From positions 121,708,979 through 121,772,978 of the forward strand of contig CM045762.1 in NCBI GenBank assembly GCA_025200525.1: DNA of 64,000 nt, in the 5' to 3' direction. Origin of the DNA: Camellia lanceoleosa. Taxonomy: Eukaryota; Streptophyta; Magnoliopsida; Ericales; Theaceae. Made by a program: the position numbers and the translations under genes. Below the pieces are notes generated by a model. It worked only from the letters and a program-made list of their open reading frames with translations. It was not told where the DNA came from and made no database searches. Shown in pieces: positions 3,144 to 52,120 of this stretch. Positions within the stretch are counted from its first letter, which is position 1. Every line of letters begins with the position of its first letter.

Positions 3144-3718
3144 GCAGTGAATACAATACTGAGAATCTCTAGGATGTGTTTACAAGTAGGCTACAAGTAC
3201 TATCAATTGTCATTTTTACCAGTACTACCCCGAAGGCTCGGCACCTATCTGCGTGGGTTTTTGGACTTTCACTAAGGACACACAAGCCAACATTATACTA
3301 CAACTACACTCTTACCCAGATTTACCAAGATATTCACCATTTTTTCTTCAAAACAATAACCATTTTCAATGTGTTAAATATGTTATAATGCTCAATGCAA
3401 TAGATGAGAAATTAGTTTCAATTCACCTAATTCTCATTCAATTTCTACAACAATCATAACTATCCTCTACCGATGACCCAAAATAAATATCTCTATACAG
3501 ATAATTAATTTTCAACACAGATATACTTTCCAACATTTTCAAATAGGAGTGATAATTCATATCCAACTCCACCATTATCATCATCATCATCATTCTAATT
3601 TCATAATACCAACATTAATTTTAATTTCTCTTTACAAAACCAAATATTCACATTTTCGGGCAAAACCCCATTTTCTTTACAAAACAATTTCAAAGGTAAA
3701 AATACATTGTTTTACCAA
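3144..3718 (-). mobile_element. Fragment of the 3' LTR of a gypsy element
   Basis: From 3144 the sequence matches 12420-12590: CAGTGAATACAA, then GTGTTT, TAGGCTACAAG and a CGAAGGCTCGGCACCTATC-type block. The reverse complement also matches 46690-46940. It is bounded by two giant LTRs, so it is a piece of one LTR cut by later insertions. Its other piece is 9029-9933. Confidence 0.7.
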
Positions 3719-6640: not shown

Positions 6641-9028
6641 TGGTTTGGCACCATTTCATACATGATTTCAGTGCATTTAGTGTTGTCACACTTCCATATA
6701 TGTCACTCCTTGATCATGTTTGAGAGTTGTGTTGTTATGCTTAGTTGATAGGGCCCTCACATGAGCATGTGTTCTTGGCCCTTTTGTGCCTTAGTTTTGA
6801 TGCATTTTGGCCACTGTTTTAGGTATGACTAAGGTCTGTCCATATTCGGTTTAAGTCCATATAGCATGTTGTTTGCATTTTGTTGCATTGCATTGCATTG
6901 TGTTCACATGTTGTTGGCATGTTATTACATCGCATTGTTGTTTGCATGCTTTTGTTGCATTGCATTGTGTTTGTATGCCATTAGCGTTGCTAGGTTGATT
7001 ATGTTGCATTAGCATTGTTCGCATGCCATTAGCATAGATAAGTTGATCATGTTGCATTAGCATTGTTTGCATGCCATTAGCTTTGATAGGTTAAGCATGT
7101 TCCATGCATTACATTGTGTTTGGATCGGGCGTTGATCCAAACACGAGAAACGAGGGATGTTTCATACTTGAAGTGATGAAACATGCCTCATTTCTCGATC
7201 GCCGACCCTCTTGATCATGCATGATAGAGGTTGAGGCTTTATGTGTTATTTGTGCATTCATTCACATTGATTCGTGCAATCTTGGCTTCTCGGCCACCGT
7301 GCATTGCGATGCATGGTTGGTAGCCCGAGAGTCGAGAACTATACTCCCTTGAGCTTGAGAAATGATAGGGAGAGTGGTTGTGCACACATGTCTTGCAAAT
7401 ACACTGCCGTGCCCCTTCTTGTTCTCTATTGCAGCAAACTGGAGAAGTGCAGAATTTTCTGGTCGGCAGACCAGTAAAAGTGGCTGGCCGACCACTTTTT
7501 CTGGTCTGCAGCAAAGGTAGGTAGTCGGCCATACTTCTGGAGGTGCCCATGATGGAGCAGAAGCCATCTGTAGGTTTGTGCAGTGTTCTGAAAACAAATG
7601 CAAACAGAGGCAAGTTGGGGCATCGTGATGGATTTCTGAATGAGGCAACTGAGCATGCATGCGCTTCTCACTCCGAGGCCCTTTCTATTTGCTTTACTTT
7701 GTTGCTTTGCTTAAGCTAGCTAATGCTTTGGTTTTGTACTTAATTAGTTAATGCGCTTAACTATTCAATTTGTGTTGTAATAACTAATTAGTTAACTAGG
7801 ATTAGTTAATTAGTTTCATCTTGTAAGAATTAGTTTAATTAGCATAGATTAACTGGTTAGCTTATTATTTGGACCCTCCGTCGAGAGGGCGAATTTTGTA
7901 ATAAGTGTGCATGTGTGTGTGCATGTCTTCCAACCCTCATTTCTTTCTCCCTTTTATTTAACGGCTTTCAGTGGTTAGTTTTAGGGCATATTCCAATTAG
8001 CATCCTTATGCTTGTATACGTGCATCATTCATTTTGTCTTGCGTGCACCGGGCTCGGCGTATCATACAAACTGCATTGTATTTCAATACTAATTTGAATA
8101 CATGTTATCAAGTTGCATTCACATGACATCTTAGAATAGTCGAGCTTATTTTAGTTGCATTTTACATGTGTTGCATTAGGTATCTTGTATAACTAGGATC
8201 ATGCATTGATTTCTAATTGGTTTCTTTTTTGGCTCGGAGTACACTGTGAGTGTTTACACTTTAGCATACTGCATGAGTATGAGTGTTGTCATGTTAGCAT
8301 GCTTGCCATGAGGCTAACTACTTAATTGATTAACTGCATGAATGCCTGTGGATGAAAGCTTCATTGCTTGAATTGGAATAATTCATCAAAATGTACGTTT
8401 TAAGCCCACTTTGCGGAGTGGCAAAATCATGTTATTTCAAGCCCACCTTGTTTGGTGGCAAATCCGCATTTCAGCCTACTTGCGAGTAACATCTTTCAAA
8501 CCATTTTCGAAAAACAAACATGAGATGTTTTGTTCCAAATCGAGCGATTTAGTCTATACTTGTATGCTGTGTGCATCACATAGTAAGTTAGATTAATAAC
8601 CGGAATAAGAACACATGTGTTTTCAAAAACAACATATCATGTTAGTAAAAGTCGATCTTTGATCGGGCACGAGCGGGGGTGCTCATTTCAGGACCTTCCC
8701 CTCTTGTACTCAAGTTCTCGAGCTGAGGCAACTTTGGTGATGACGGACACGTGGCCTTAGGCACGAGTTAGGGTTTCCTAAATTTCCCAAAATAAAATAT
8801 TTACGTGGCGACTCTGAAATCTGGTAAAGCAGTCCATGTTCGGCGTTTTTTGATTAAAATCGATTTTTCAAAACAATTTGCCGGATTTGGACTCTGTGGT
8901 GATTTATCAGTCTTACATTGCACTTTGTGAGATTAGATTCAGAACCGTGAGAGGAGTCCGAACTGTAGTAGCTAGAACGACAATTCGCGCCCTCACGCAC
9001 GGAGCGGAGTTCGGGGCTGTCTATACAC

Positions 9029-32949: not shown

Positions 32950-33038
32950 AGTTCCCAATTCCCACAAAGTTGGGTTGGGATACTTGCGTACTTGAGTTAG
33001 GCTGGGCTTGAGAAAAGAGTGAAAGGGAGGGTGGGAAT

Positions 33039-33046
33039 ATTTATAA
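33039..33046 (-). promoter_or_regulatory. Putative TATA box of the AVT1-type gene
   Basis: TATAAATA on the minus strand lies about 125 bases upstream of the chosen ATG at 32913, with the CT-rich leader (32915-32942) between. The spacing suits a plant core promoter. Confidence 0.6.
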
Positions 33047-33049
33047 GAC

Positions 33050-34223
33050 GGGGAGGAGGAAAAGGATTGAAATTGATACGCTTACGTTGTCATATATCAT
33101 ACTAAACTAGAAAAGAATCTTAAGTCACTACTACTACTGTTAGATATGCGTTTCTGAGTGGGGGAGGTGGTTCCTGCTACTTGGGGTACAGTATAATTTA
33201 GCTTTAGCAATTTGCTACAATGCAACACACAACCTCTTGGCTCCTCCATTCCATGCACGATTAGTGAGAGAAATGGACGAGAGAGAGAGAGACGACAAGT
33301 TTCCAGCAATCCTATAAATTTAGAAAAATATCCAGAAAAATATATAGAAAACAAATCTATAAATCACAATTATTGTAGATGGAATTAACATCACACAAAT
33401 TTTAATTCTACACCATATAACTCATTTCAGGATAAATGTCAAAGGATATATTCATAGCCCATAGCATTTTTGATTTTTTTTGAGAGGACAAGAGAGTAGT
33501 TATTTGTCTCAACATATTATCAAAATTTTTTAGTAGTACTTGGGGATTTGTCCAGAGAGATGCAGTAGTACTTCAAGATCTATTACATGTTGAAGGCCTT
33601 TTGTTGTTTTTATCATCTGTTGTTTTGACACAATTTTTTGGTTATTATTGTTATTAGGGTTAGTTATACTTAATATTTTTTCACTTTCATCAAAATTTCA
33701 CTTTAAATCATTCACTTTCAATTATGATAGTCAACGTCAAAAAAAAATTATGATAGTCAATCTCCGTCAAATTGTAATTTTATCTTTTTGTCCATCTATA
33801 ATTTAAGAGCCTAACAAAAATTAAAAGCAAAAGGAATAAGGTAAGATTTTGATAAAAGTGCAAAGCTGCTATGTGCAATTAACCCCCTTCTTCTTCTTCT
33901 TCTTCTTTTTATTATTATTATTATTATTATAATTATGAAAAATGTTAAAAATAACCTTAAGAGTTGTTGTTTGTGCTAGAAAAAGTGTATTGAAATGTCT
34001 AAAGAATGAATAAAAATATTTTAAGATATGTAAAATATGTATTAAGATTATAAATATTTTGATATTGTGTTTATTATTGACAGTACTTAGGATTGTCATT
34101 AGCAAAACCTTATTATTATTACAATATGTAAAAAGGAAATAGGAGAAGGGGAGACTACATAACACACTAATAAAATTTGAACCCAAGCATCACGCTTACC
34201 AAGCCAACCCCTTGGTCTTAGAA
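33050..34223. other. Intergenic, upstream of the AVT1-type gene
   Basis: This holds probable promoter sequence at its left end, then AT-rich DNA with a (TTC)n/(ATT)n microsatellite at 33889-33932. No gene is recognised. Confidence 0.4.
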
Positions 34224-34720
34224 CACTACAAGAATTTACACAATTGCCGACCATTTTTGCCGACCAAAAAAATTTTGGTCGCCAAAAAATGACATTTGGC
34301 GACCAAATATTAATTAGTCGCGAATGATCATTATTTTTAGCGACCAAATATTATTGGTCGCAGAAGGTTATATTTTGGCGACCAAAAAAAGAGTTGGTCG
34401 CAGAAAGTGGCATGTTTTTGCCGACCAACTACAAATTTGGTCGCGGAAGGTCATATATTTTTTGACGACCAAAAATTTGGTCGCCAAAAACTTATTTTCA
34501 GCAACAAAAAAAAATTAGTCGCCAAATTTGTACTTTTAGCGACTAATATTTTAGTCGCTGTTGATTGAGATTTGGCGACTAAAAAAGTTTGTCGGTGAAG
34601 GTACCTTTTTTGCGACTAATATGGTCTTTTGGTCGCCAAAAGTGGGGGAGGAAAATTTGATTTTTATAGAGGCGGGAATTGAATTTTTTTTGCGACAAAA
34701 AAGTTTGGTCGCCAGTTTTA
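34224..34720 (+). mobile_element. CACTA-type transposon terminus with subterminal repeats
   Basis: CACTACAAGAA at 34224 is the standard outer end of En/Spm (CACTA) elements. About 500 bp follow with repeated TTGGCGACCAAA / TTTGGTCGCC motifs in both orientations, the usual transposase-binding subterminal region. The element extends to the right. I did not find the matching TTCTTGTAGTG end or a transposase frame in the window. Confidence 0.8.
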
Positions 34721-34735
34721 AAACGACGTCGTTTT
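34720..34735. promoter_or_regulatory. Perfect 16-bp palindrome AAAACGACGTCGTTTT
   Basis: It sits at the inner edge of the subterminal repeats and just before a CT-rich, gene-leader-like stretch. The 14-bp core recurs at 63015-63028. Its role is unknown. The ACGTC core resembles bZIP-binding sites. Confidence 0.5.
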
Positions 34736-35407
34736 GTACCAAGAAAATAGAAAAAAAAAAAAAGAAAAAAAAGCCCTAATCTCTTCTTTCTCTGGCCCGC
34801 TCTCTGTGCCTATGTTGGTCTGTCCTCTCTCTCTCTGTGTTCTCTCTCAATCGGTGCCCACTCTATGTAGCTCACCGAAGTCCCTCACCACCATTGCTCA
34901 CGTCCGTCACACATCGTCACCGCCGCAAATCGCCATCGCCCTCTGTCTAATGGACTCCTCATTTCTAGAAGATCCTCACCCAATCTCACATCATCTCAGA
35001 CCAACGTCAAGACGCCACAGCTAAGCGCCACCGACGCCGCCTCTCATGTTCTCTCACTCTCGGTCTATCTCTCTCTCTATTTCTCGTTCTCTCCCTCTCT
35101 AGCCTTTTCCCTCGGTCTCTCTCTGTCTCTGTATATATATATATATATAATGCGGTGATCATCCGTACTGAGAGAGGGATTTGAGCCCTAATTGATGATT
35201 TTGAAGAGGTTTGTCATGATTTTGCGGTATGATTTTGATTTTGAAGAGGGTTTTTCGCGATCTGGGCCGTGGTTCAATCCTCTGTTCGGTTCGAATCTCA
35301 GTAAGTTTGAGTTTAGCTGTGTGTTTTTTAAGTGATGTGGATGATGGCTAATTGAAATGGGATAATCTGATTTTTCTTTGTTGTTTCACAGTTTCAATCT
35401 GCAACAC

Positions 35408-35676
35408 ATGCATGCCAATCACTTGCTTCTCACAGAGCCTATTAGGATGGCCTCCATTCTCGAGCCATCTAGAGCCGTAAGTTCCATTTTTTTCTTCTTC
35501 TCAATTTCAATGTCGATCTATACATCTTTGGGTATGTATATATATATATGATTGTGACTTTGATCTGGAACTTGTACGATGTTTATTGATTTCACAGAAT
35601 TTCTTCCCCACAATGACAAAGATCGTTGGGACTTTGGGCCCCAGGTCTCGATCTATCGTTAAAGCTGGAATGTCTG
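35408..35676 (+). pseudogene. Fragment of cytosolic pyruvate kinase (5' end)
   Basis: Exon 1 (35408-35476) reads MHANHLLLTEPIRMASILEP and ends at a GT donor. After a ~120-bp intron, 35598-35676 reads NFFPTMTKIVGTLGPRSRS then KAGMS. This matches the N-terminus of plant cytosolic pyruvate kinase. About nine residues that normally stand between SRS and KAGMS are missing, and similarity stops after MSG. The intron is kept, so the piece came from genomic DNA. A non-coding leader-like exon and intron precede it (35150-35390). The catalytic barrel is absent, so it is not functional. Confidence 0.85.
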
Positions 35677-36544
35677 GTATTATACCGGAGAATATAGATA
35701 ATCAAATTTAGATAATACCGGTGAATGGGTGGACATACCATGCTGCACCTCTTACTAACAACACCTAGAGAGATACCACCATCTATTGGTGTGACTAAAT
35801 ATAAGTTCATGAATCATCTGGAAATTTTATTATAACCTGAATTTGATCTCGATCTATAATTTCTGACAAATGATTGAGACAAATTGGCCAAGACTTCTCA
35901 TCAGTTCCATGGTTGGTTATGTGAAAACATTGGAATCTATTCAGAGGAAATTGTTAGCTAATGCAATAAAACAGGCTAAATCTATTTAATTACATGAATG
36001 TTCCCTTTACATGTATCTTTAGAGAAGTCTAACTTCTAAAACTATGGTGTTTTGTCTACATTATATTAGATACTGTGATGATAACATATTGAGAATATAT
36101 CTCATCTATCCCTCAAAATACATTACTAGGATATAAAAGAATTAGAGTTTACTTGTTCTACATTTTGTTTCAAAGTTGTTACATTTAGTCCATCTGTATG
36201 TGCATGTGTGAATGTATATATGTTTGTAGTAAGTATATCTTAATACTCATGAAAATACAAAACTAAGTATTTGGCAGTGTACGATTTAATAAATATGCTG
36301 ATTCCCTTATCCAGTTTTTATGCATGTAGAGATGTTGCACTTCATTCATTGGCGACTTTTATTACTTTTCCATGTGAATGCTCCCTGTTGATGTCCATTA
36401 TTTTGTTGCTTACACATTTTTTTTTTTTCTGACCATGCTTAAGCAAGTAATTGGTATGCTTTATTTGATGCATTCTTTCCAAGAATTGAATAGCTTTGCT
36501 GCATATGCTTGAGATTTTTTTCTTGCCCCTAATTTTCTGGTGAA

Positions 36545-37675
36545 GGTGGAGTTGCTGTAGGCACAACTGGACGTGACTTCACTCCTCATGTGGTAAAGAT
36601 AAAAGTAGGAGAGGTACTGTTAGATATGGAAAAGAAGTTTCCCTTATCGTCTTGTATTTAATGTCTGTCTGTTTTCCATTTCTTGTCAAGTTGCTACTAT
36701 TGGTGGGCGTACAAGAGATGATTACTTTTTGATTTTGTAGGACATTGCCGAAAAAATAGTGTCATTTTCTCAAGGAGGTCCTCGAGCCGTTTGTGTTCTT
36801 CTTGCTCATCGCCCTGTTTCTATAGTAGATATTCACCAAGTTTGGTTCTTGTGGCGTGGTATTTTAAGATATAAGGCATGATCGATACTAACTATTTTGT
36901 TTTCGCATCTTCCTATTTTTAATTTATTTCTGACATGATTTTTAAAGGATGAAATATTGGTATTATATTCTTGCTTGTGATTGAGATATTTTCTCTTTTT
37001 GTTCTGCCAGTTATTGGGATTTTGTTTCTTGTAGCTTCTATAGAGACTCCATCCCTTTGCTAGAAAAATTTCAAAAAATAGAAGTAAAAAATAAATAGAG
37101 GAAAAGTTTGACTTTGACCATGAAAAACATGAGGGATCCGAAAATGTTGTAAAACAATCCCATGGACCAATCCCATGGTGTTTATGATCCCACTCTAATC
37201 AAGCAATCACATACTACATCGGAATTGTATTTAAATATGAATTTTAAAGATGAAAAGGTTAGTTAAGGGGTTATGCGCACATGGACCAAACCATGGGGTT
37301 AAAGTGAACTATCTTTGAAACTAAGGAATCACACAAAAGATTTGATTGCATTGCATATGCAACCTCCACGGTTTTTGCATTTGAATTATAGGATTTGACT
37401 CTTTGATGTCATACAAAGAAAAAGAAACAGTTTTTTCATTCATGCATTATGAATCCAAATAACAATTTTCTTTTCTTTTTTGACATTTAACTTCTCCTAT
37501 CATCCTTCATGCAGGGCTGTTTTGAGCTATTAACTCTAACTGGATCACCTGCTCTTAATGAAGTGGGAGGTGTACGGCGCACAAATAGGCATGTTAAGTG
37601 TTTCGCTGGCCAAACCTGATGGGACAGTTTTTGGTGGTGCTGTTGCAGGATCTCCAAAAAACCTTCATTTTTAGC
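36545..37675 (+). pseudogene. Fragment of an AT-hook (AHL) PPC/DUF296-domain gene
   Basis: Three exon-like pieces are seen: 36545-36613 (TGRDFTPHVVKIKVGE), 36741-36840 (DIAEKIVSFSQGGPRAVCVL) and 37515-37675 (GCFELLTLTGSPALNEVGG, then after a frameshift MLSVSLAKPDGTVFGGAVAG). These follow the order of the PPC domain of AHL proteins, which bind AT-rich DNA and pack as trimers. The AT-hook itself is not seen. Intron borders are kept. The frameshift near 37590 and the degenerate end of the middle exon make it a pseudogene. Confidence 0.82.
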
Positions 37676-37984
37676 AATTGTTTTATCTCCAAGAATGTAT
37701 GGGGCTTCACTTACACAACCATTTAGCTGACATGATCAATATAAAATATTTTGTTATGCGCAACCTTGTCATTTACTCTGCAAATGACAGTGAAGTGAAT
37801 GTTCTGCTTGTGTTATTGTTTTTAGATTGTGGTATCTATAAGATCCATGTAATACTTATGTTAATTTCTTTTTTGATTTACCAGCTCATTATAGCAAGTT
37901 TCAAGCAGATTATCAAGAAACAACTTCTCAAGAGGCACTTTGTTGAATCTTCATCCGCTAACGGCATGCCTGGTGGTGATTTGG

Positions 37985-38070
37985 ATACTACACCAATGTC
38001 TACTATAAATGCTATTGCTGTTGAAGCGTATAAGAAATACATACTTGTCTCTCTTATTAACCTTGGGCAG
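37985..38070 (+). pseudogene. Fragment of COP9 signalosome subunit 3
   Basis: The frame reads TPMSTINAIAVEAYKKYILV then SLINLGQ and stops at a GT site after CAG (38070), as an exon border would. This sequence is characteristic of CSN3 in plants, where HHGQ or similar follows SLI. It lies in an open frame that begins at 37678, but the upstream part is not recognisable as CSN3. One exon-sized piece only. Confidence 0.72.
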
Positions 38071-39753
38071 GTTGGCTTTATTTTTCTTCTTAATCATTCT
38101 ATTTCATATTTATGTCTTGTAGAATAAGGAGAAGGTTTACAAAGAAGTGGCTGAATGAGTTGGGAAGATGTTGTTGTTATAAGTGAATCTTGTCTAGTGT
38201 AGTGCTTTTGTTTCCAAGAAGAAAAAATTATCCAATTGTTAATTAAGTTGGTAATTCTCTTGGACTTATTAACATGTTACTTCATTGAGTGGTTATCCCA
38301 CATAATTTTGTTCCACTTTGGCATTGTTTTAGAATATTTTATATTTTTTGTGAAGATTATGCCAACATAAATTAATAGGTGAAGATTATGCCAACATAAA
38401 TTAATATGTGAACATCAATTAAATCTGGTGAAGGAAGATGATAAACTAGGGAAGATATTCAGTTTAGACTTCAATAATGCCAGATCCATGTTCGTTAAAA
38501 ATATGTTTATTTAATCGAATGTTTATTTAATTAATGGAAGTTCTATTGCAACTCTTAATTTTTGACTTTTGATAAGCCATCTATATTTTCTTTGTTGTCC
38601 CATTTTTTATAACCTTTTGGTTGAGGTAGTGGGTGACTCAACATCTCTCCCTACTATTCTAGATACGTAAATATACATATATCCCATTTCTGTCTTCTCT
38701 AATCATGCCCATATTTATTACTTAATGTCCTAATTTGGATGATTCTTCAGGATCATATTCACAACTGGAGGAAGACTACTCTGATCCTAACATCCATTCT
38801 GTTTCTGGCAGCTAGAATATTGTGTATAGATCTAGAAACATAAAGGGGACAACAAAACTCTACCAAGGAAACTTGAAGCAACAATGAGTGCTATGAGAAT
38901 TTTCTTGTTCAAATCTTGGTGGTGCACTATTCTAACCTTTGGCATTCCTTATTTCAGAAGTAATTGTAAATAATGAGCTTCAGCAAATATTAATTTGGAA
39001 CCAGAAATTTGCCAAGCAAGAACCCTCCCAAAATAAATAAATAAAAAATTTGTCTTCCCTATATTAAGTAGATTGTTGAGCACAAATTTCTTTTGAGATT
39101 TATAATAAGAAGGAATTGCAGTTTATGGGTAGAGTTGGAAATCAACAAACACAGTTTGGTTCTTAGTTGGACCTATTTTTCTTTTACAATATAGTATATT
39201 GTAATATCCATTAGATTGTCATATTCTATATTAAAACATTTCATTTGAGATAGTACATTAGAAAACCAATTCATGAATTAGGTAAGAAAGGATTTATAAA
39301 GGGACCCTAAAACATCAGCTCTTATATGAGTATGGAATGAAAATAGATTTGTTTTATGGCATTTGATGCTCAATGTGATGGTGAAAGAATTTGTCAACAA
39401 AATTCAGTTTTACCACTATTGATAGTTCAAAATGGGAAAGTAGTTCATTCTGTTTTTTATGTCATTGGAGGTGATTCTCATTCCATAGATAAATCTACTA
39501 CCACCTTGGTGAGATTTGATACGACTGTGTTTCATGTTATCTGCTTGTGTTTTACAATTATGGTTTGAGTTAAATTTGAACAATTTCATTTCCATCTGGT
39601 GTAAAAACTTACATAATTTTTTGAGACTCAGAGGAGAGTTAGACTCATAATTCGTCCATTATTATTTTGAGTTCTGTATTTCACTATATTTATTAATAAA
39701 TGCATCTATGAAAGGATGCCCAAGTTTTTAATTTGATTAAATTTGTTCTCCAG

Positions 39754-40320
39754 GCACTAGGCATTCCCATTCATAGGCTTGTGCAGGCTGTTGATTCAGT
39801 TTCGGTAGGGTTACATGGTGACTGACATTCTAAGTTATATATATATATATATATTTTGGTGTTGTGTTTTTACAACTTAGTTCTTAGTTGGACCTATTTT
39901 TTTTATTTGAAGCTCGCATGAAGAAAATTAAATTACATAATTGAACAAGTTATCTTCTCTATTTTGTTATATTACATTATTTCACATTATGTAATCCAGA
40001 TATGTCTATCAAAAGGATTGGGCGCTCCAGCTGAAACTGTCATTGTTGGTTCAAAAGATTTTATTACTAGGGTATTACAGATATTTTTGCAACAATTAAG
40101 AATTCTGTTTTTCTCTCATTGTAGAAACTTGATACCTATCTCTCTCACTCTCTCTTCTTCTTCTTCTTCTTTTTTAATGGTTTTGTAGGCAAAGACTCTA
40201 AGAAAGACCTTAGGTGGTGGGATGAGACAAGTTGGAGTCCTTTGTACTGCTACTTTAGTTGCAGTGCAAGAGAATGTTAGAAAGCTCGAGTGATCACAAC
40301 AATGCTAAGTTTTTAGCACG
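39754..40320 (+). pseudogene. Fragment of L-threonine aldolase
   Basis: Three exon pieces are seen: 39754-39804 (ALGIPIHRLVQAVDSVS), 40000-40071 (CLSKGLGAPAETVIVGSKDF) and 40189-40320 (AKTLRKTLGGGMRQVGVLC, then QENVRKLE and DHNNAKFLA). The order matches plant THA-type low-specificity threonine aldolase around the PLP-lysine motif SKGLGAP. The enzyme cleaves threonine to glycine and acetaldehyde. A frameshift after KLE, a changed first splice junction and missing N- and C-terminal parts make it non-functional. A plus-strand frame at 39356-39569 just upstream may be another captured exon, but I do not recognise it. Confidence 0.82.
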
Positions 40321-40479
40321 AATTTTTGGAAATGAGAAAGTCACAAATGATGCTTGGCGGAAGGATGTTGAAGCAGGAGAAAAATGGCTAGAGAATTGTG
40401 GTGAGGATGAAGAATTTTTGAAACGTGAGAGCAAGAGGCTACATCGTGATTTGTTGAGAATTGCACTGTGTACATTGAG

Positions 40480-41935
40480 GCTCAAACTCGAAAATGAAAA
40501 ACAATTTCGTGGTTGGGAATCTGCTTTGGGCTTCAAGATGTCATTCGATGCATGAAGGAGGTCGTTATTTTACCATTGTTATATCCTCGAGTTCTTTAGT
40601 AATATGGGACTTACACCACCTAGGGGTGTTCTTTTGCATGGCTATCTGGAACAGTAAAACATTAGTAGTGCGCGCTAATTGGTTCTTGTGCTTGTGGTGA
40701 TAAATGGATAGCCTATTTTGCTCGCAAAGGAGCGATTGTTTAGGAAAATATGTTGGTGATCTTGGCACTAAGACTTTTGTTTCAAGTTGCCGAGAAATGT
40801 CAACCATCTATAATTTTTTTTGATGAGATTGATGGGTTGGCACCTTGCACTAAAGAAGATCGAACACATAATTGATTGTTTCCACCTTGCTTGCTCTATT
40901 AGATGGTTTAAAATCTAGAGGCTCGATTGTAGTAATAGCGCAACAAATCGCCGATCTTTGTTGATCCACTTTAAGACGACTGGTAGATTTGATAGAGATT
41001 TATTTCCCACTTCCATCGATTGAGGACAGTGAGCTATTCTCTCGCTTCACACACAAAGTTGGCCAAAGCGATCCTTTGGATTAGTGCTCAATTGGATTGC
41101 TAGAAGAACTGAGGTTTTGCTAGTCTTGTCTATGAGCTCTTTGTACCCAAGCGACCATTATTGCCCCGAGGAGGAACCGCCTTGCAAGAAATATTGTCTG
41201 CATGAGAAGAAAGCTTCTCATGGTAACGTCCTCCTCTTCCCACCTTTGCGGTGGAGAAGAGGATTGGTTGGAGTCTCTTGCATGTGCACCACCTCCATCC
41301 TCTCAACGGGGAGCAGGAATGGCTGCAAATTATGTGGTATCCTCACCTCTTCGCAGCCATCTTATTCCTTGTCTGCGGCAACCGCTGTCCAGATTGCTTG
41401 TTTCTCTTTATCTTGATGAACGTCTCTTGTTGCCTCCTCATCTTTATAAAGCTGCCACACTCATCAAAAGTGTAATTGTTTCTGCTTTGGATGAGGAGAA
41501 AGTGCCGAGTGATCATTGGTGGTTCCGTGTTCATGACTTGCTTCAATAAGCAGATGTTTTAAGGGTGATTGAGATTAACCTTTCACGTGGTGGCATTTTA
41601 ATTGGACAGGCTAGTGATTCCAATTTTGATGATTGGGGTGAGGGTACTAATGATGACAGTTTGAAGTACAAATATCCAAAAGATCAGCAAATAGGTACTC
41701 GACCTAGTTTGTTGCAGAATATATCTTACGCATCAGCAAAGAAGTTAGGATTCAAGATGTCGATTGAATCCCCAGATCTGGCCAGAGGTATCTTGCTTCT
41801 TGCCTTCTCCACTGCTTTGTTGGGAATGTAGAAATCCAAAAGGTTGATTTGGCTACAATTTCACAAGAGGGACACGGAGATGTAACTCAAGGAGTAACTC
41901 GAATATTAAGTATTTCCTTTCTTCATCTTGTCTTC
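40480..41935 (+). pseudogene. Fragment of an AAA-ATPase gene (ATAD2-like, plant At3g15120 type)
   Basis: Recognisable pieces in order are RGWESALG, a broken CMKEVVILPLLYP region, GSCACGDKWIAYFARKGA, LLFQVAEKCQPSIIFFDEID (Walker B), TGRFDREIYFPLPSIED, ALCTQATI, WLESLACAPPPSSQRGAG, SLYLDERLLLPP, SDHWWFRVHDLLQ, and NVEIQKVDLATISQEGHGD near 41840. The Walker A loop is destroyed by a stop and substitutions around 40640. Many stops and frameshifts follow. About 1.45 kb runs without clear introns, so it may come from a large exon or a processed copy. The preceding frame (40319-40480, WRKDVEAGEKWLENCGEDEE) may belong to the same gene, but I cannot confirm it. Confidence 0.78.
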
Positions 41936-43644
41936 TAGATGCATGATTCTGAATAACTTGGATTTTTATTCAGTTTCATTTACAAATCAATACATCCATT
42001 GTTACATGACACACTTTGTGCATCTTACATGGTTCCTATCTTTCTAGTTGATATAGGTGTATGTTTAATGGAACTCGACAGAAATGGGGTCTCTTGGTGA
42101 AGGATCCATCGAATTTATAAACCTTTGGACACAAGGATACATAACACTAATGTTGTGTTTGGATCTTGGATTTGTGAAGGGAAAAGGTAAGGGAAGAAAT
42201 TTGTGGAAAAATTTTGCTTCTATTTCATTCACTTTTCCCTTCCCTTTTTCTTTTTCCTCTACAAATCCAAGAGTTTCCAACTTTTGTTCTCCTATACCCT
42301 AGGGTAAAACTTGTGTTCTTACCTTACAGGCACTTAATATGAGTACCTCATTCATCTCAAAGTCTCAATATGTCAGGAAAATGAACATATTAAGATAGTA
42401 TCAGTGTCATGTTGTGTTCAACAGAGTTTGATTATGCATTTTGAGGTGTCCCTGTAACATAATTCTAGGCACTTTGGAGAAAGTGAAGTGGCTATTCTTG
42501 CAAGGATGGATGGATGCCCTTATGATGAGTGTTATGTATCAAAGCTCCATTGACTGTTTTGTATTAAAGCTTGAGTCATGACAGTAAAATTTTGCCTTAC
42601 TAATCAAATTGATCATTCAACTGTGTGTTCTGCTTATGTAGTTAAATGATTGATCATTCAACTTCGAAGTATGCATCATTTGGAGGAAGCCAGTTTTTTT
42701 TTTTTTTTTGATCACCGAGGAAGCCAGTTTATTGGTTAAAAAATTCGTTTTGTTAAAATATTTTTAACTCAGAAAACTTCTTTCTTGCCAAACATCCTAT
42801 TTAGACGTACTAATAAATTATTAAAAAAAGAAAAAAAAGAAAAAAAGAAAAGAAAAGAAAGAAGAATGTACCAAAGAAAATAGTTTTTTAGCACTAGTTT
42901 TTTGAGTAATTAAAAACATACCCTTTGAGATTTGTTTAAAATATAGATTATCCCCTATGGTTTGAAAAATTACAAATACCCCTTATTATAAATTTTTATT
43001 TAATAAAATTAATTGAAGAAATAAAAATTTTAACTGTTCTTCTATATAATAATAAAATTATCTAAATTATTAATTGAAATAAATTCCTGATATCATTAAA
43101 AACTATTAATTGATACGATGATTTATTAATAAAACAAACTATTTATTATGAAATAATAAAATTCAAGGGGCAAGTTATAATTTCTAAAATCACAAGAGGC
43201 ATTTCATATTTTAAATAAATCTCAGAGAGTATTTATAATTTATCCCAATTTTTTTATAGGATTATTTTTAACTAATATGCGAGCTTCTTAGCAAACTTCC
43301 AAAGTAAGATTGTGTCGTATTATTTATGTTGTGTTTTCGACAAATGAAGAATAACAAAATATATTTGGTAAGTCATTTCTTGTCTCGTAACTACCTAATA
43401 AGGGTAGATTAGCATTGTTTCACCTCATAAATTTTTTTTGATATGTTATTGGTCAAGAATACCACATGCACAATGACAATGCCATATGACACTTTGAGAC
43501 TACAAATAATTCCCACATAATATAGGGTAATGGTATAATACATATTTATTTATGTACATCATATATAAACTATTGCCTAAATTGATGTTAATTACAAACT
43601 ATTGCCTTGTTTGATTACGCGTTATTGTGATTGTGGTGAGGGAG
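41936..43644. other. Intergenic with two foldback elements
   Basis: No gene is seen. 42148-42275 is a short foldback: TTGTGTTTGGATCTTGGATT faces AAATCCAAGAGT. The larger 42905-43250 element pairs TTGAGATTTGTTTAAAATAT with ATTTTAAATAAATCTCAGAG. A purine-rich low-complexity run lies at 42822-42866. Confidence 0.5.
42905..43250. mobile_element. Foldback MITE
   Basis: The left arm (ACCCTTTGAGATTTGTTTAA then ATTACAAATACCCC) and right arm (GGGGCAAGTTATAATTTC then ATAAATCTCAGAGAGTATTT) are long imperfect inverted repeats with an AT-rich loop. Confidence 0.7.
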
Positions 43645-46600
43645 TGTGATGTCCTCGTTACCTGTGAGACTTATGTGGGAATATAATTTGGATTTTTATT
43701 CTATTTTAGGATTATTACTATCTTTGAAATTCTGAGTTACCTTCATTGACATCTATTTTTATTCTTCTAAATGATTCTTATCCTAGGTGGCCTTTGAGTT
43801 GAATATTGGTTTTGGAGTTGTGTTTGAAATAGGTTGAGATTGGTAATTCTGGGATGATTTTGACTGAGTAAACTTGAGTTCGCTCGAGCGATTGTTTGAT
43901 TGCTTGAGCAGTTTTCCTTTCTCCCAATTCTGGGTTTGAGGTGTGAACTTCTAAGAATTTGCTTTCTTTTCTCAAGCTTAGGTTTGTCATTCGAGCGATC
44001 CTTAGTGTTTGACGATCGAGCTTAGGTTTCGACGCTCGAGCAATTTGTTTTGCAAAGATGAATTTCTAGAAGTTTGGCTTTTTCGCTCGAGTTTGGTTTC
44101 TTCGTTTTGATGCTCGAGTGCAAATTTCACCGCTCGAGCAGTTTGTTTGAATAAAGCTACAAGAAAATTTTCTTTTTATTCACTTTTTGATCTATCTCTC
44201 TCTACCAAATATCTTCTTCTCTTTTGCTCTCACCTCTTTTTGAAAACCTAGCGTAAATTCTCCAATCTACCTTGATCCGTTGATTTTTCGAACGTCGTGC
44301 TTTAGAATTAAAAGTTGGGCTCGAAGAAGGAATCATTTTAATTTGAATAGTTTGAATTTTTGTTTTCATTGATTTTCGGGTGTGGTTCTTTTTTTCTTCT
44401 TACTTGAGGTAGGGATTTCTTTAATGATTTGTGTAACACCCCCAAAATATTAATACAGAGACATCAATTTCAAACATATAAAATACTGGATGGTTCTCTT
44501 TCTCATTGAACTAAGGCTTCCTATTATAGTCCCATGTTCAACTCATTAATTACAACTCAAGTTTATGACAAAGTTCAACAAATTAGAGAACAAAACAAAA
44601 TAAATTGTCGTATGGATTACAAAACTCAAGGCACAGCCTCGTTACAACAAAATGGGCTCACGACCCTTAGTATATAAGCTCTAAGCTTCCACAAATAAAC
44701 ATTCTTGAGCCTCGGCACTCCAACAAAACAAAAGAGCATACTTCACATCACTACGGTAGTGGCACATCACTGGTTCCTGAAAATGTTAGGTAGGGATGAG
44801 TTATATGCCTAGTAGAGATACATTTAACAGAGTATCTAATTTTTTTGAACAATTCACATGGCTCTATCACAACCCAACACAATTACCAATTTAAGTTCAA
44901 AAGTCATAAAAGTAGGAAAAGAAATGCATTTGCATTCTAGGAACCTTTCTCAACACTAATGGGGGTAAATATGTCTTGAATCCCTTGTAGGAGTCCCATA
45001 CTACATATACATATAGGTTTATAACTAAAACTATCCATACATTTACCGATTATTAATACGGCAGGTGGTGAGCACTCAAAACCATCAATTTTTTCACTTT
45101 TGTCGATTACTATATGGCAGGACTAGTGAACACCCAAAAGTATTTTTTCCACATTCGTCCGGCGATAAGCTCAAGACAGGGCAATTGAGCACCTTAACTT
45201 CCCTGCGCAGCTATCGACACAATACATTGTTCTAAAAAATCGACCCTTTACCCGGACCCATATGCTATCTACCACCCCTTATTTACCACCTTCCAAGTTA
45301 CCATCGCCCACAATTAAAAGAGATGGAAAGCCACATATACAAGACAAGGGTTAACAATTTCCAATCCACAAATCCCAATTCAACATACATTAATAACATA
45401 GCCAAAAATCTAGTTGTCACTCATTTATATATAATATCAAATAGAATTTTATGATTTGAAGCGTAATTTCACCCAAACATCACTTTTCCTCAAAATCACA
45501 ATTAGGGTTTATAATCAATTTGGGGCTTTTACATCCCCTTCTTATATGTGAAAATTCTCAACATCAATAATCATAATCCATAAGAACTTTATCAAAATTT
45601 TGATAAAAATTGGGTAAAATTCCTTTTTTCTCAACATAAAACGTAGTTTTTGCTCGTTCATCCAATTCAAATGTCATGGTCACAACAACACCACATAATC
45701 ATTGTCAAATCAAGGAGATACTACCTTAAGCAAAGAGCAAGAAAGTTAGACTTCAAAGAGAATTCTTCGTAGAATCGAAATCCAATCGGTAGAAAGTAAG
45801 ACCTTTATGTATGCTCCACTTCTTGCAAGAGATCTAGACTTGGATCTTAGTGAAATGAGAGATATTTAGAATAAGAATCTTAGGGTTTTCGGAATGAGAG
45901 AGAGGAAAGAAGATAGAAAAGGAAAAATGGAGAAATGATCTAAAAAGTAACTTTTTAAGTTATTGAAATTGCACGGACCGCTCGAGCCGTAAACAAAGTC
46001 TCTCAATATCTCTATTTGCAAAACGAGATACTAGGAACCCTTCATATTTTCTCGAGCGACCGCTTGTTCGCTCAAGTGATCCCTCGACCTGCAAAACTAC
46101 TGGAAACTTTACATCTACTCTCTAGCGCGGTACTTCCACCGTTCGAGCAGTCACCTGGAACAAGTTATCAAAATTTGCATGTTATTTGTGTTATTTGACT
46201 AGATTAACACTTTGGAAGGTTTGGGTTTGGTTAATATATATTTTAAATGTACAAAGAGAGGTTTTCTCAAAGTTTTCTTAAAAATATCTTATTGAGTTGT
46301 TGGTAATGGTATTTGGTATTAGAAATTTGAGAAAATGGTCTTTTAAAAGGAGGGCGTCCAATATTTCTACTACACCCTTGACTTGTGCTCAAGGATGAGA
46401 AGAAAACTATGTTATTAAAATTGTTGTGGATTCATGGTTTTGAGCCATATGGAAATGAATAAGATTTCTTTTGGGAAATGTTTAGGCAAGACAATATTCA
46501 TGGTGTAAGTGTTGTGGAAATGATTGGTTATACTCTTAATTTATATATTGTCCATTTTAGAACATATTGAATAGAGATAATTGTTTTAGCTATCGGTGGA

Positions 46601-47313
46601 GGATAACATTGATTATTGTAGAGATTCTATGAGAATTAGGAGAATTGAAACAATATGTATTCCATTTAAATTCTATCATTGGTTTCATACTTAAGCATTT
46701 TCATAATGTTAAAAAGTATTATTTTGAGAAAAAAAAAATGGTGAATATCATGGTGAATCTGGTTAGAGGGTGTGAGTGTGGCTTATTGAGTTGGCCTGTA
46801 TGTCTGTGGTGAAAGTCTAAAAAATCGTGTGGTTAGGATGCCTTCCTTTCGGTTAGTTGCCGGTAAAGAGTCTTTGGTAGTGTTTTTATAGCCTACTTGC
46901 AGACACGTACCTAGAGATTATCAGTGTATTTATTTACTGTCTTGTTTTTTTGTTTTAAAGGAAGATATAAATTGTGAATTGAACTTTGGCATAGCATTGT
47001 TTCAAAAAGGGGAAAAAGAAAGTTTTGTATGGCATTTTATATGCATTCACCATATGGCATTGTTAAACATCATATATATCATTAAACTTGTTTCAACTGG
47101 GTTTTAGCTCACCCTATATGGAAAAACCTTTTAGATGTTGATAGTATGCCTCCACCGAGGATATAGCTTGGGAGGACATTGGAATTGAATGCTCATTTGA
47201 GTTTTGTTTTGTGTAAGCATAGGGCTTTCTATGTTTTGGGTTCAAGACCCACTTTTATTGTAATCAAATATAATATTGAAAACTTATAGCCAACGTGGCA
47301 TGAAATTGTAACA
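43645..47313 (+). mobile_element. Gypsy LTR split by a nested insertion
   Basis: It starts TGTGATGTCC at 43645 and ends ATTGTAACA at 47313. Its two halves (43645-44431 and about 46190-47313) match, in opposite orientation, 9933-9029 plus 3718-3144 plus 12420-11832, so it is the same LTR family as the gag-bearing remnant. The sequence between is another LTR in reverse. CGCTCGAGCG-like motifs lie at 43880-44140. There are no flanking coding domains. Confidence 0.7.
44432..46190 (-). mobile_element. Gypsy LTR inserted in the previous LTR
   Basis: On the minus strand it ends GGGGGTGTTACA (44432 on the plus strand), a common gypsy LTR end. It contains CTCGAGCG motifs at 45977-46145 and a TTAAGGTAGTATCTC stretch near 45722 that resembles the splice-donor region of related LTRs. 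The right border is approximate. No clear target duplication could be fixed (ATTTG is a candidate). Confidence 0.6.
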
Positions 47314-47383
47314 GTTTAGACATTAACCTTTATCAACTACATGCTATTGATTCAGGTTTTGAAATCAATGAATATATTATGGA

Positions 47384-48650
47384 CAAGGGCGGACCTAGGA
47401 TTTGTCGATGGGGTGGGCTAATATTAAGGTAAGATTATACAATATATTTTAAGTATAACCACAAGAAAAAAGAGAATTTAATAATATAATCTAAATTAAT
47501 ATCTAAATTTATTGATTAGAAACAATCGAATTAAGTTGTGCTCGACGAGTCTTTAAAGATTCGAATTCATTGATTACAGAATCTAGATCAATTTTCAAAA
47601 AGCATGAAAAACAATATGCTTTATCCTTTGAAGGAGAATACTCTAGCCAATAAAATTGTCTAAACCAAATATGTTGAAATCGGCTATTCTGCTTTCTAAA
47701 TGAGAACTTAGGATACTCAAGTTTAGGTTGATAAGGCCCCAAGTTCACATAAGCTCGTCTAATCTCATCCTGTTGATTAACCGGATATTCACAATTTTGC
47801 AAGCGTAAACCAGGATCCCGTTCAATGACAGTTGAATCAAATTCGCTTGGTTTATTTGCTTGAGGTATGGAAGGCAGTTGCACATCAGAAAATGAGATTT
47901 CAACAACATTGGATGTTGTACTGTTAGATTTCAGTTTTGATCGATAAAATGGGAAAAGGGTTTTCCCGTTTTTGAGTGTGGAGGTTTAATTATTTATAAC
48001 CTAAAAAAAATTAGCCCTAATTGATATTAAACAAGAGTATATTCGCAATAATTTTAAATATTAGGATTTATATATATATATATATCCTCAATTATTTTTA
48101 TTTAAGCTTTCGTTATTTTTATATTTTTCCCAAAAAACTCTTTCAAAGTTCAAAAACTAAGAGCAATATAGAACATTGAACAAGGCAGCATCATAAAAAA
48201 ACTAAGAGTAATATAATATTTGTTGCATGAAGATAAAATTTCAAAATCATTGTTAATCAAATCAATTATCAACCAACGAAATAAAATAATTGGTTAATTA
48301 CACTTACCAAAAATGTTAGAAAAGTGGAGCTAATACAAGTTGCTGGAGACGACGGAGAGGGCCGCTGCCTATCTATTAAAAGACGTGAGTATTGTTTTGG
48401 AAGATTTGTTCTTTAAACAAATACAAACCTATTGGGCTGCCTATTTATTTTTTTGGGTAAGTATTGGGCTGGTATTGAGCTACCTATCTAAAAAACAAAC
48501 AAAAAAATTATCGGCCCTTATTTGGGATGGGACTGGATTGGGAGAGGTTGGGAGGCTGGACTGGGTTGGGCTATAAAAAAAATTTCTATAGATTTTTTAA
48601 ATTTTGGGTTGGGCTGCAGCAACCTATGCCCAGCCCTAGGTCTGCCCTTG
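47384..48650. mobile_element. Short hAT element with 16-bp ends and 8-bp target duplication
   Basis: The ends CAAGGGCGGACCTAGG (47384) and CCTAGGTCTGCCCTTG (ending 48650) match at 15 of 16 bases. Flanks ATTATGGA (47376-47383) and ATCATGGA (48651-48658) match at 7 of 8, consistent with an hAT duplication. It is about 1.27 kb long and keeps only the N-terminal coding part of the transposase, so it is non-autonomous. Confidence 0.85.
47509..47883 (-). pseudogene. N-terminal piece of a TTF-type zinc-finger hAT transposase
   Basis: The 124-residue frame has ERDPGLRLQNCEYPVNQQDE, then RRAYVNLGPYQP, FRKQNSRFQHIWFRQF, YWLEYSPSKDKAYCFSCFL. This is the TTF-type finger at the start of the zinc finger MYM-type protein 1-like transposase family in plants (the CFSCF cysteines are kept). 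The catalytic core and dimerisation regions are missing, and the tail has unrelated sequence. It lies inside the hAT ends at 47384-48650. Confidence 0.8.
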
Positions 48651-48944
48651 ATCATGGATGCGGTCTGATTTTGTAATACTATAAAACATTATGAATATCA
48701 ATGTGTGAAAACTTATAGTTGCTTTTGTTTGTTGGAAGGAAAATGTATGTGATGTGGATAGTCCGAGATTTCATGTTTCGGGGGCATGACAGTCAGCAAA
48801 TTATAAAATCAAAAATAATTATAACCCATTTTAGTGTTTCATTATATTGCAAAGTGGTATTGGTTATGAATCTAATGTGGTGATTTTAGTTACAATTAAA
48901 ATGATTGTCAATTGTCTATCTTAAAAAAAAAAAAAAAAATTGAT

Positions 48945-49196
48945 TGTCAATTATATTTTAAAATGGTGTAACTTATAACTCAATGTGACTATAATTAATG
49001 ATCTAGAGTTTTTTTTTTCTCTCTCTCTCTCTCTCTCTCTCTATTGATTGTTAATTTTATTTTAAAATGGTGTTACTTACAATTCAATATGACTATATTT
49101 AATGATCTAGAGTTCCCCCTCTCTATTGATTGTTAATTTTATTTTAAAATGGTGTTACTTACAATTCAATATGACTATATTTAATGATCTAGAGTT

Positions 49197-49254
<58 letters not shown>

Positions 49255-49255
49255 G
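48945..49255. repeat. Three tandem ~76-bp units separated by CT tracts
   Basis: The unit containing TTTTAAAATGGTGT(A/T)ACTTA and TTTAATGATCTAGAGTT occurs at about 48945, 49044 and 49120. Each is followed by a T- or CT-rich tract. The last is an uninterrupted CT run (49204-49252). Unit and tract seem to have been duplicated together. Confidence 0.85.
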
Positions 49256-49259
49256 CTAC

Positions 49260-52120
49260 AAATTTAGGGGGAAAAAAACTCAAAAAAATATTCAAAATTT
49301 GAATCCTATAGCCTAGATTCGCTAAAGGTTTAGCCCTACAACAAAAACTTTAGGAGAAATTACCATTAAGTGGTAATTTTAAAAAATTATTTTAAATTTG
49401 TAAAAAAAAATTATGGTTTTATTTATTAATATTTAATAAATTTACCACTTATTTGTAATATTTTTTTTTGTCCCCAAAACTTTAAATACACACCTTTAAT
49501 CAACTTTTCATGATAAATTTTTGGATCATTGGTTCTTTTATTTTTTTAAATAAAAATTAAATTCATTAAGTATATACTCTCTTTTTTTAAGGGTGGTTTG
49601 CCAAATTGGACAAATTGTGTTTTTCATTCGGCCACGGAAAGCAACCTTAGAGAGCTGAGAATCGCAGACAAAACATAGAGAATCGTCATTAGAGAGGTGG
49701 GAATTTTTTAGATCCTTATATTCGTACATAAAATACGTACTTGATTCTTATCGAATTCATCATGTGCTCTTATCATCTACTCCAATTCATGAACCATTTT
49801 TTTTTTTGTTTTTTGCTTTTATTTTTTTATGTTTTTTTTGGGCAAGTACTATGTACCAATTCTGTTGGGATGGAACATTGGATGGCTGCTGATTCTCCTG
49901 AAGATGAGGAGGAAATTATTTATAGGAAGGCTTCATGAACACAAACTTATGCTATGCTTTATTTGATTTGAATAATTCTAGGAACACATATGTGTTTCAC
50001 AGAATGAAACACAGATTTGTATTTTATACTGTGGAACACAGCTATGTTCATAGAATTCCTTTTATCAAAATGAGATTGAATAAAATGAAATGAAATGAAA
50101 TAAATATTTTTTATGGTATTATTTAGTTTACTTGAATGAAATGATCGTTTCGTCAAGATGTTTAATCTTATGTTTAATTTACTAGTACTCTATTTAGTTC
50201 ACGATTGGAAGTGAATAGTCATTCTTTAATATCATTTCATTTAATTTTGGCTCATTCTAGTGAACCAAATAAAACATAAATTTTTTTATAAAATGTTACA
50301 TGTCCTTTATCCAATAAAATTATAATATCATGACCTTAAACTAAAAATTCATTTTTAATTTTTTTTTTTCTTCTAATTCTCCCATTATTATTCCACATGA
50401 TATGGCGTGACGACATAAGCTTATGGTAGCTTTCATGTTTGTTACATGTCCTTAAGGTAGCTTTCATGTTTGTCTTCGTCAGAATTCCAATTAATATTTG
50501 TATTTATTAATATGAGTGTCATTATTTAAACTCAAAAGTTAAATTTATTTTTTAAATATAGTGATAAATCAAAAAAATAATTAATTGATAATTAAATATT
50601 TTTTAATTATTAATCAATCATTTTCTTGATATGAGTATAGAAAATGAATCTAAAAAATAAATTTATATATCATTTTCCTATTAATATTAATATTAGTAGT
50701 AGAAGATTATAAATGGTTGTTTTGAGAAGATGGTTAAAAGTTAATTTTTTTGACCTTTTTTTAATATTTTTTTTTAAAAATATGTAAAAAATATGATAAA
50801 TTATATAAATCAAAATAAATTAAAAATTAAAAAATAATTTTTAATTATCTTTTCAAAATAACCCAAAGTATAGCAGCGTAGCGTAGTGCTTGGGAAACAA
50901 ATAAAATGATGCCAAACGAATCGTATCAGATTTTGAGAGAGGATGATAGATAGAATCTCTGCCTGCCTGCCTACCTTCCATTGCTGGAAGAAATAAGCAT
51001 TCCCAAGTTGACAATTTTTTATTTTTGACAGGTACACTTTATTTATTTTATTTTATTTTGAGTTGATTCGCTTTGAAACCAACTAATTAAAATTGAAAAA
51101 ATTGCCATTAAGTGATAATTTCAAAAACATATTATAAATTCATGAAAAAATTTATAATTATATAATCATTAATATTTATAAGTTTATCACTTAATTGGAA
51201 TTATTGTTTATAACTTTCACTTACATGAAAATTTTCATGATTCATGATGAAGAATCACACGAACTAGGATCGATAAAGAATAGAGAGTAATAACGATAAT
51301 GTGAAGATGTTCAAAATCAATAATGAGTAACTACAGAAATACATAGCGCAACGAAGACGTGAATAATATTGAAAAGATCAAATACAATTATATACTATAT
51401 ATATATATACCAAGGGCAAGATCTTCCATACAAAAATACAAACAATTATTTTTGCCCCTGTGAAAGGAAACGATAGTGTTTGAGGGAAATGGGACTATTA
51501 TTTTTCACTCTAAAGTGTTAGGCTACGTTTGCGGGTTAGCTATCAAAATAAATATATATTAACCCAATCCCTAATTGTGAACTAACAAAGAGAAAAGGGG
51601 CTGTAACGTGCCACCGTTGTAATGATTTATTTTCTCCAGATGATACATTTTAAGTTACAAAATAATAATAATAAGAAAAAAAAAACTATTCTCATCCTAC
51701 TTTATTTCAAAAATACTCTTTCGTTGTCTTTATTATACATAAAAAAAGAAATTTATTTGAAGTAAAGTGAAATGATAATAGTAACTATATAATAAGGACC
51801 CAAATATATATATACATTTGAAACAAAATAGAGTGTAAATAGCAACTCCCCAAAAAGAAATTCTTAATATACTTTGATATTTCTATGATGGCGCTCATTT
51901 ACTTTCTAAATTAACAAATCTTAACACTTAAAATTATACTCAACTTTTCATCATTATTATTATTTTTTAAATCTAAATTAACTAGTTTCAAGGGAAGATC
52001 TTACTAATCTAACAATTAATCACTAATTTTTACCAATCAAAAAAGAAAAAAAAATACACAAGTACACGATGTCCACAAAAGATACTACATTCCTATTTAC
52101 CAAATGTAATATTAATTTAA
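49260..52120. other. AT-rich intergenic DNA
   Basis: No gene is recognised. A short plus-strand frame ending EHWMAADSPEDEEEIIYRKA (to 49938) is acidic and gene-like but too short to assign. Two related foldback repeats with ATTACCATTAAGTGGTAATT (49360) and TTGCCATTAAGTGATAATTT (51102) mark members of one MITE family. A (TA)n run is at 51395-51409. Confidence 0.4.

Follow-up and report, generated by a model that had tools for sequence, protein, structure and literature searches.

A probable 3'-truncated Pack-CACTA transposon carrying sense-oriented pieces of five genes in Camellia lanceoleosa

A 64,000-nucleotide stretch of the 3.0-Gb Camellia lanceoleosa genome (CM045762.1, here contig C5, positions 121,708,979 to 121,772,978 of the forward strand; hereafter the window) contains a CACTA transposon terminus followed by pieces of five genes, namely, those for pyruvate kinase, an AHL/PPC protein, CSN3, threonine aldolase, and an AAA-ATPase. 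Do these pieces form the cargo of a single transposon, or were they inserted separately beside a CACTA end? An initial annotation, made from the letters of the window, had described the terminus, its subterminal repeats, and the five plus-strand pieces and had proposed either one chimeric element or a cluster of captures. The terminus was confirmed as an exact match to CACTACAAGAA with subterminal repeats behind it, and all five gene pieces were confirmed on the plus strand (Table 1). We conclude with high confidence that positions 34224 to 42654 are one copy of a nonautonomous Pack-CACTA transposon whose 3' end is missing.

The evidence for this conclusion is, above all, a second copy. A genome search with positions 34224 to 42600 (8377 bases) returned a full-length match at C10:14991809-15000225 (97%), and in a detailed alignment the two copies were 97.5% identical from 34224 to 42654. 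The 5' flanks are unlike (...CTTAGAA in the window versus ...CACACAT at C10), and flank queries (33000-34240 and 42640-44200) gave no match at the C10 site among the candidates scored. The same 8.4-kb arrangement at two sites with unlike flanks indicates that the unit transposed; the two copies, the exact 5' border, and the different flanks all point to mobilization as a unit. A segmental duplication between C5 and C10 would also explain 97.5% identity over 8.4 kb, but the homology starts exactly at the CACTA terminus and the flanks have no match at the C10 site among the candidates scored, and we consider such a duplication very improbable. Equally improbable is a cluster of gene duplicates and transposons that arrived separately beside a CACTA end to which they are unrelated. 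The window has no second CACTA end, and some blocks occur singly, such as the AHL piece at four loci (L016, L017, L018, and L020), as such a cluster would predict. However, the entire order from 34224 to 42654 recurs at C10 at 97.5% with different flanks, and at C9 and C12 parts of it likewise follow a CACTA end of this type. The cluster is refuted by the C10 copy unless that copy is an assembly duplicate. The single chimeric element of the initial annotation is therefore upheld, although its extent is not: the arrangement is real, but the shared unit runs past the proposed end at 41935 to 42654.

The CACTACAAGAA 11-mer occurs 7222+7203 times genome-wide, far above its reversed control (1528+1439), indicating that this end is part of an abundant group. 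In the window by itself, it is not significant (two matches with one mismatch versus 1.63 expected), and the evidence for the element border is thus the exact start of homology between two copies, not the 11-mer alone. At the other side, homology to the C10 copy ends at 42654. A second CACTA end was absent from 34235-64000 when up to one mismatch was allowed, and the next 19.8 kb had no exact one; a three-mismatch search of the window was near chance (260 seen versus 237 expected), and the C10 tail had no match at an E value of ≤1e-3 in the rest of the window or the 19.8 kb beyond. The initial annotation had held that failure to find a second end would speak against one element. The window has none; the C10 copy, however, extends about 2.5 kb past the window break to 3' subterminal repeats and ...GTTGCCAAAAGTGTTAATTCTTGTATG, which, together with a complete relative on C9, indicates that the window copy is 3' truncated. 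The nearly intact C10 3' end reads TTCTTGTATG. About 1.2 kb beyond it, in inverted orientation, lies another CACTA-type end, again a 3' one (L042 3921-4540, about C10:15003921). In a Pfam scan of 41900-51892, beyond the element, the plus strand gave nothing at an E value of ≤0.1, and the minus strand gave two weak matches (E values of 0.029 and 0.042).

Relatives of the element were found at other loci. The number of loci sharing the 5' terminal region (Table 1) is a lower bound, as 40 of 2708 candidates were scored. The relative at C9:107074718 (C9:107M) is complete; it reads CACTACAACAA...TTCTTGTAGTG over 9963 bp and is flanked by a GAT/GAT target duplication, outside which the further flanking bases differ. 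The flanks of the relative at C12:132.9M are TGA/TGA if its end is read as TTCTTGTAGCG. The CACTA...TAGTG terminal inverted repeats are present at the 5' end in the window and intact at the 3' end in C9:107M and in a further relative, C9:74.5M; subterminal repeats occur in both orientations, as in the CACTA (En/Spm) superfamily. The C9:107M and C12:132.9M relatives have in common with the element the 5' end, part of the pyruvate kinase-AHL segment, and 127 bp from the CSN3 region, after which they diverge. The C9:107M cargo includes a CDC48-type AAA piece (PF00004, E value of 6.2e-10; PF02933 only at an E value of 0.05) and carries no threonine aldolase or ATAD2 piece. In two other loci, on C25 and at C9:74.5M (L022 and L023), the AHL piece is joined directly to the 3' part of the ATAD2 piece; these joins are most simply read as internal deletions. 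Four more loci (L016, L017, L018, and L020) hold the AHL piece only (2098-3435 of the C10 element), each beside the same sequence of about 480 bp, which also occurs near C10:15006796-15007265.

Two other transposon classes were considered. Maize Helitrons typically carry several gene pieces on one strand, introns included, and a Helitron with a CACTA element inserted at its start could account for the cargo. However, the border common to the copies is the CACTA end, and the relatives have CACTA 3' ends; a strict scan, with perfect stems only, for CTRR+T after a perfect GC-rich hairpin found none (window 30001-64000, plus strand; 20001-64000, minus strand). We therefore give a Helitron almost no credence. 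Pack-MULEs have long terminal inverted repeats and 9- to 11-bp target duplications, and rice Pack-MULEs capture several genes at the DNA level with introns; assignment to this class was rejected, as C9:107M, the complete relative, is bounded by CACTA ends and a duplication of 3 bp.

Table 1. Coordinates of the features of the Pack-CACTA copy and its borders in the window
Position	Strand	Feature	Basis
34221..34223	.	GAA, putative left copy of a 3-bp target duplication whose right copy is lost	sequence; 5' flank unlike C10 copy
34224..34234	+	5' CACTA terminal inverted repeat CACTACAAGAA	exact match; C10-copy homology begins here
34224..34948	+	5' terminal region, common to C10 and at least 23 other loci (16 to at least position 719 of 725)	85-92%
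34261..34712	+	subterminal repeats TTGGTCGC / GCGACCAA, both orientations	
35150..35374	+	internal block, whole in three other loci, partial in more	94%
35378..35684	+	pyruvate kinase piece, two exons separated by their intron	PF00224
35691..37989	+	AHL/PPC piece with introns	PF03479 in source locus
37885..38073	+	AHL::CSN3 chimeric exon, frame open from splice acceptor to donor	identical in C10
37987..38504	+	CSN3 exon with its intron as far as 38351; L045-L049 family sequence from there to 38504	97%
38513..38829	+	short block, another multicopy source	best C10:81564436 (92%)
38820..39071	+	short block	best C1:58185419 (94%)
39060..39164	+	short block	best C10:81564147 (97%)
39235..39449	+	short block, common to at least 8 other loci	95-97%
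39437..39560	+	short block	best C1:6697710 (95%)
39539..40327	+	threonine aldolase piece, three exons with introns	PF01212, E=1.3e-11
40326..42654	+	ATAD2/Yta7/Abo1-type AAA-ATPase piece	
42650..42663	+	truncation point; TTGATCATTCAACT at border repeats the word at 42609 (41 bp upstream)	

Matching loci for all five genes were found in the same genome, as the Pack-CACTA class requires, and the alignment of the fragments to their paralogues, which had been proposed at the outset, gave a likely source locus for each. The best source of the pyruvate kinase piece is C10:93453960-93454281 (L064; 91% identity). This piece begins just before a splice acceptor and ends just past a candidate splice donor; its ends lie right outside the two outer splice sites, as though it had been trimmed down to exons that can still be spliced, and 18 bp of its second exon are missing in both copies. 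The AHL/PPC piece matches C11:73140929 (L014) in two stretches at 95% and 97%, with 193 bp of L014 missing near 37657. The threonine aldolase piece is closest to C11:13074634 (L028; 93%). For the AAA piece, the best source is C5:28848082 (L013), at 94% over the searched part, to 42600, and at 95.7% for the C10 copy; Pfam alone is weak in the window (PF00004, E value of 0.014), and L013 has a 712-codon open frame at the match. Tandem repeats of about 185 bp (81 to 85% alike) adjoin the ATAD2 piece in L013 (3852-4221) and in the C10 element (8445-8736). Introns are kept in the pyruvate kinase, AHL, CSN3, and threonine aldolase pieces, in agreement with the initial annotation, and the AAA piece is collinear with its genomic source locus. 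The introns indicate capture at the DNA level, and processed retrocopies were rejected on the same ground; a retrocopy origin for the apparently intronless AAA piece was also rejected, as L013 has the same uninterrupted layout.

The CSN3 piece probably took a less direct route. Its exon, 37987-38073, matches PF22788 (E value of 1.8e-6). The CSN3 gene, at C1:222876679 (L050; PF22788), matches the window at 93%, and this match stops at 38351, whereas five loci (L045 to L049) match the window to 38504 at about 97%. This difference in extent points to a relay through a CACTA-associated family, and, judging from these alignments, the piece probably came via the L045-L049 family or a common ancestor of both, not straight from the gene. 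The family includes an element on C1 (L046/L070/L071, C1:209000824-209012341) with a longer CSN3 piece; its CACTA 5' end, accompanied by subterminal repeats, is at C1:209001483, some 4.8 kb ahead of the CSN3 match. This C1 element also carries a gyrase A-like piece (PF00521, E value of 7.6e-6, below the curated cutoff) and a piece that we take, from reading a frame, to be MOR1-like; its gene pieces are all on one strand. The other members, L045 and L047 to L049, are 94 to 95% alike to it over 1.5 to 2.9 kb, and L051, which shares part of the C1 family, has a C9-like 3' end. Transfer in the reverse direction, from the window element to the family, is less likely, since more of CSN3 is present in the family.

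Behind the CSN3 piece, 38513-39560 consists of at least five blocks of 105 to 317 bp, mostly abutting, that match different places, with 39165-39234 unmatched. The count of five donors in the initial annotation thus stands for the genes but not for the source blocks, of which there are more than five. A 470-bp multicopy unit at L056, L057, and L058 (94%) includes the window block 39235-39449; a frame near the unit in L056 resembles a 26S proteasome ATPase (RPT-like) exon.

The junctions suggest how the cargo may have been assembled. The AHL and CSN3 sources share ACTG at their junction, and in our reading of the printed borders the pyruvate kinase-AHL and 38504-38513 junctions have small duplicated words. 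These words fit, but do not prove, break or gap repair with template switching. The element would move by cut and paste, through a transposase supplied elsewhere that acts on the CACTA ends and subterminal repeats. Its cargo would have been built up stepwise at the DNA level, acquired while breaks or gaps in the element were being repaired and synthesis copied other genes and other CACTA elements, with joins at short shared words and small templated insertions of the abortive gap repair type. Sense pieces are proposed to persist because, placed downstream of the 5' end of the element, they can still be spliced; antisense or terminating pieces would be lost. PMC8978399 likewise assigns CACTA capture to the abortive gap repair of Rubin and Levy, whereas the model in PMC8903248 is fusion of neighboring elements, and such fusion may explain the relay.

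We additionally examined orientation and coding potential. All five gene pieces in the window are on the plus strand, and across three element types (window/C10, C9, and C1), every gene source that Pfam recognizes, whether in the piece itself or at the source locus, is sense relative to the CACTA 5' end (7/7); the tally comprises the five window genes, the CDC48-type AAA (C9), and gyrase A (C1, below the Pfam cutoff). On the minus strand, Pfam found nothing at an E value of ≤0.01 in window positions 34223-42654, L046, L070, L071:660-4000, or L042:280-2132. The frames of the AHL::CSN3 exon were assigned by Pfam for CSN3 and from the open frame of L014 for AHL. A working chimeric gene, with AHL and CSN3 domains united in one transcript, would be consistent with this exon, which has one open frame with acceptor and donor kept, identical in both copies, and with the pyruvate kinase and threonine aldolase splice sites, which look intact. 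However, the upstream AHL exons and the AAA part have many indels relative to relatives in one or both copies (many of which may be sequence errors), and a working gene is improbable. Most likely, the element has no effect as a protein and at most yields a chimeric RNA, spliced and of low level, along with small RNAs directed at the source genes. A broader proposal, which we hold to be unlikely though less so than a working gene, is an orientation rule, under which only sense pieces bordered by usable splice sites are retained, combined with relay between families, giving a shared exon pool that makes spliced multigene RNAs, including the in-frame AHL::CSN3 exon.

The reading frames must be viewed in light of sequence quality. 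The window and C10 copies differ by 20 isolated substitutions in 8356 aligned bases and by 70 indel or multibase clusters, which are concentrated in a few blocks. At a mutation rate of 6.5e-9 per site per year, the isolated substitutions (0.24%) place the parting of the copies at about 0.2 million years ago, as a rough lower figure. Clusters touching CG/CHG sites were compared with random placement in 2000 trials, with the reversed motifs GC/GHC as a control. CG/CHG sites were touched by 32/39 clusters in the window versus the ATAD2 locus (14.4 expected; 0 of 2000 trials), 18/24 in C10 versus the ATAD2 locus (9.8; 1 trial), 7/13 in the window versus the threonine aldolase locus (2.6; 8 trials), 9/16 in the window versus the AHL locus (5.4; 93 trials), 45/70 in the window versus C10 (19.8; 0 trials), and 21/38 in C9 versus C12 (9.9; 0 trials). 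The corresponding control values were 25/39 (18.0; 25 trials), 17/24 (12.2; 64), 6/13 (4.7; 625), 10/16 (6.7; 172), 37/70 (27.1; 14), and 17/38 (14.8; 579), an enrichment that is weaker than that for CG/CHG yet present in places. Isolated substitutions were enriched at CG/CHG in 3/6 comparisons (AHL, 15/33; window versus C10, 11/20; C9 versus C12, 21/52). In 36428-36857 and 40509-41224, short scrambled words and indels differ among copies and source loci, largely at CG/CHG.

The consensus of long reads may be wrong at methylated cytosines, and from these patterns such errors in repeats may explain much of the clustering. However, the window-C10 differences per 250 bp showed no significant correlation with CG/CHG density (Spearman 0.27, P=0.12). 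Genuine mutations, or sequence exchange among the copies, may be an alternative source; some local variants are common to several elements, which leaves a place for mutation or exchange beside errors. Since the clusters at CG/CHG are possibly errors, reading-frame breaks should not be taken at face value.

Several observations weigh against the Pack-CACTA element and the history proposed for it. The window copy lacks a right end and hence its own target duplication to compare; the C10 3' end lacks one base of TTCTTGTAGTG, and the flanks of that copy, CAT / CAA, are not identical. The C9:74.5M relative has intact CACTA-type ends but flanks of CTT / AGA. No transposase domain was found by Pfam in the plus frames of the window (35300-41937, E value of ≤1; 41900-51892, E value of ≤0.1), in the minus frames of 34223-42654, or on either strand of the C10 tail L042:280-2132 (both at an E value of ≤0.01); this agrees with Pack-CACTA elements, which have no transposase of their own, and mobility would thus be in trans. 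For the C1 element, only the 5' end was seen, with no 3' end found in 11.5 kb. The capture mechanism is argued from the appearance of the junctions. The orientation tally is small and post hoc (two-sided sign test, ~0.016), and the minus strand of the C9 element was scanned only in L069:1-3002 (E value of ≤0.1), with one weak match (0.051). All results come from one assembly.

The kind of element described here is already known from Tgm-Express1, Tpn1, and Pack-CACTA, and this member is unusually well traced. Our impression is that the order and route of multigene captures by CACTA elements are seldom traceable. In Tgm-Express1, the soybean CACTA element of the wp allele, fragments are spliced as extra exons of chimeric RNAs (PMC1947982); unlike it, the present element has different source genes, a second copy, relatives, five identified gene loci, and a 3'-truncated window copy. 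The nonautonomous, En/Spm-type Tpn1 family of Japanese morning glory likewise has its inside replaced by captured genic sequence with the ends kept, and chimeric transcripts are reported; the host is different here, and fragment relay between families is absent from the available part of the Tpn1 account (PMC5105172). For Pack-CACTA and other Pack-TYPE elements of Arabidopsis, rice, and maize, PMC8903248 describes internal new DNA with conserved ends and growth by fusion of neighboring insertions and remobilization. Its two detailed examples carry 58- to 280-bp gene pieces, whereas the present element has five genes and further blocks over about 8 kb, with small duplicated words at its junctions. 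Maize Helitrons also capture several genes at the DNA level with introns (PMC4683698); they and rice Pack-MULEs have other termini, in contrast to the CACTA ends here and the 3-bp target duplication in the complete relative.

The present case adds traceability, namely, the gene loci, the second copy, the complete relative, the probable relay, and the AHL::CSN3 exon. The analysis also carries a warning that frameshifts in such elements of this assembly may be sequence errors. With this traced set, gap repair involving template switching can be tested directly against fusion of neighbors as the capture mechanism, and so can the sense bias.

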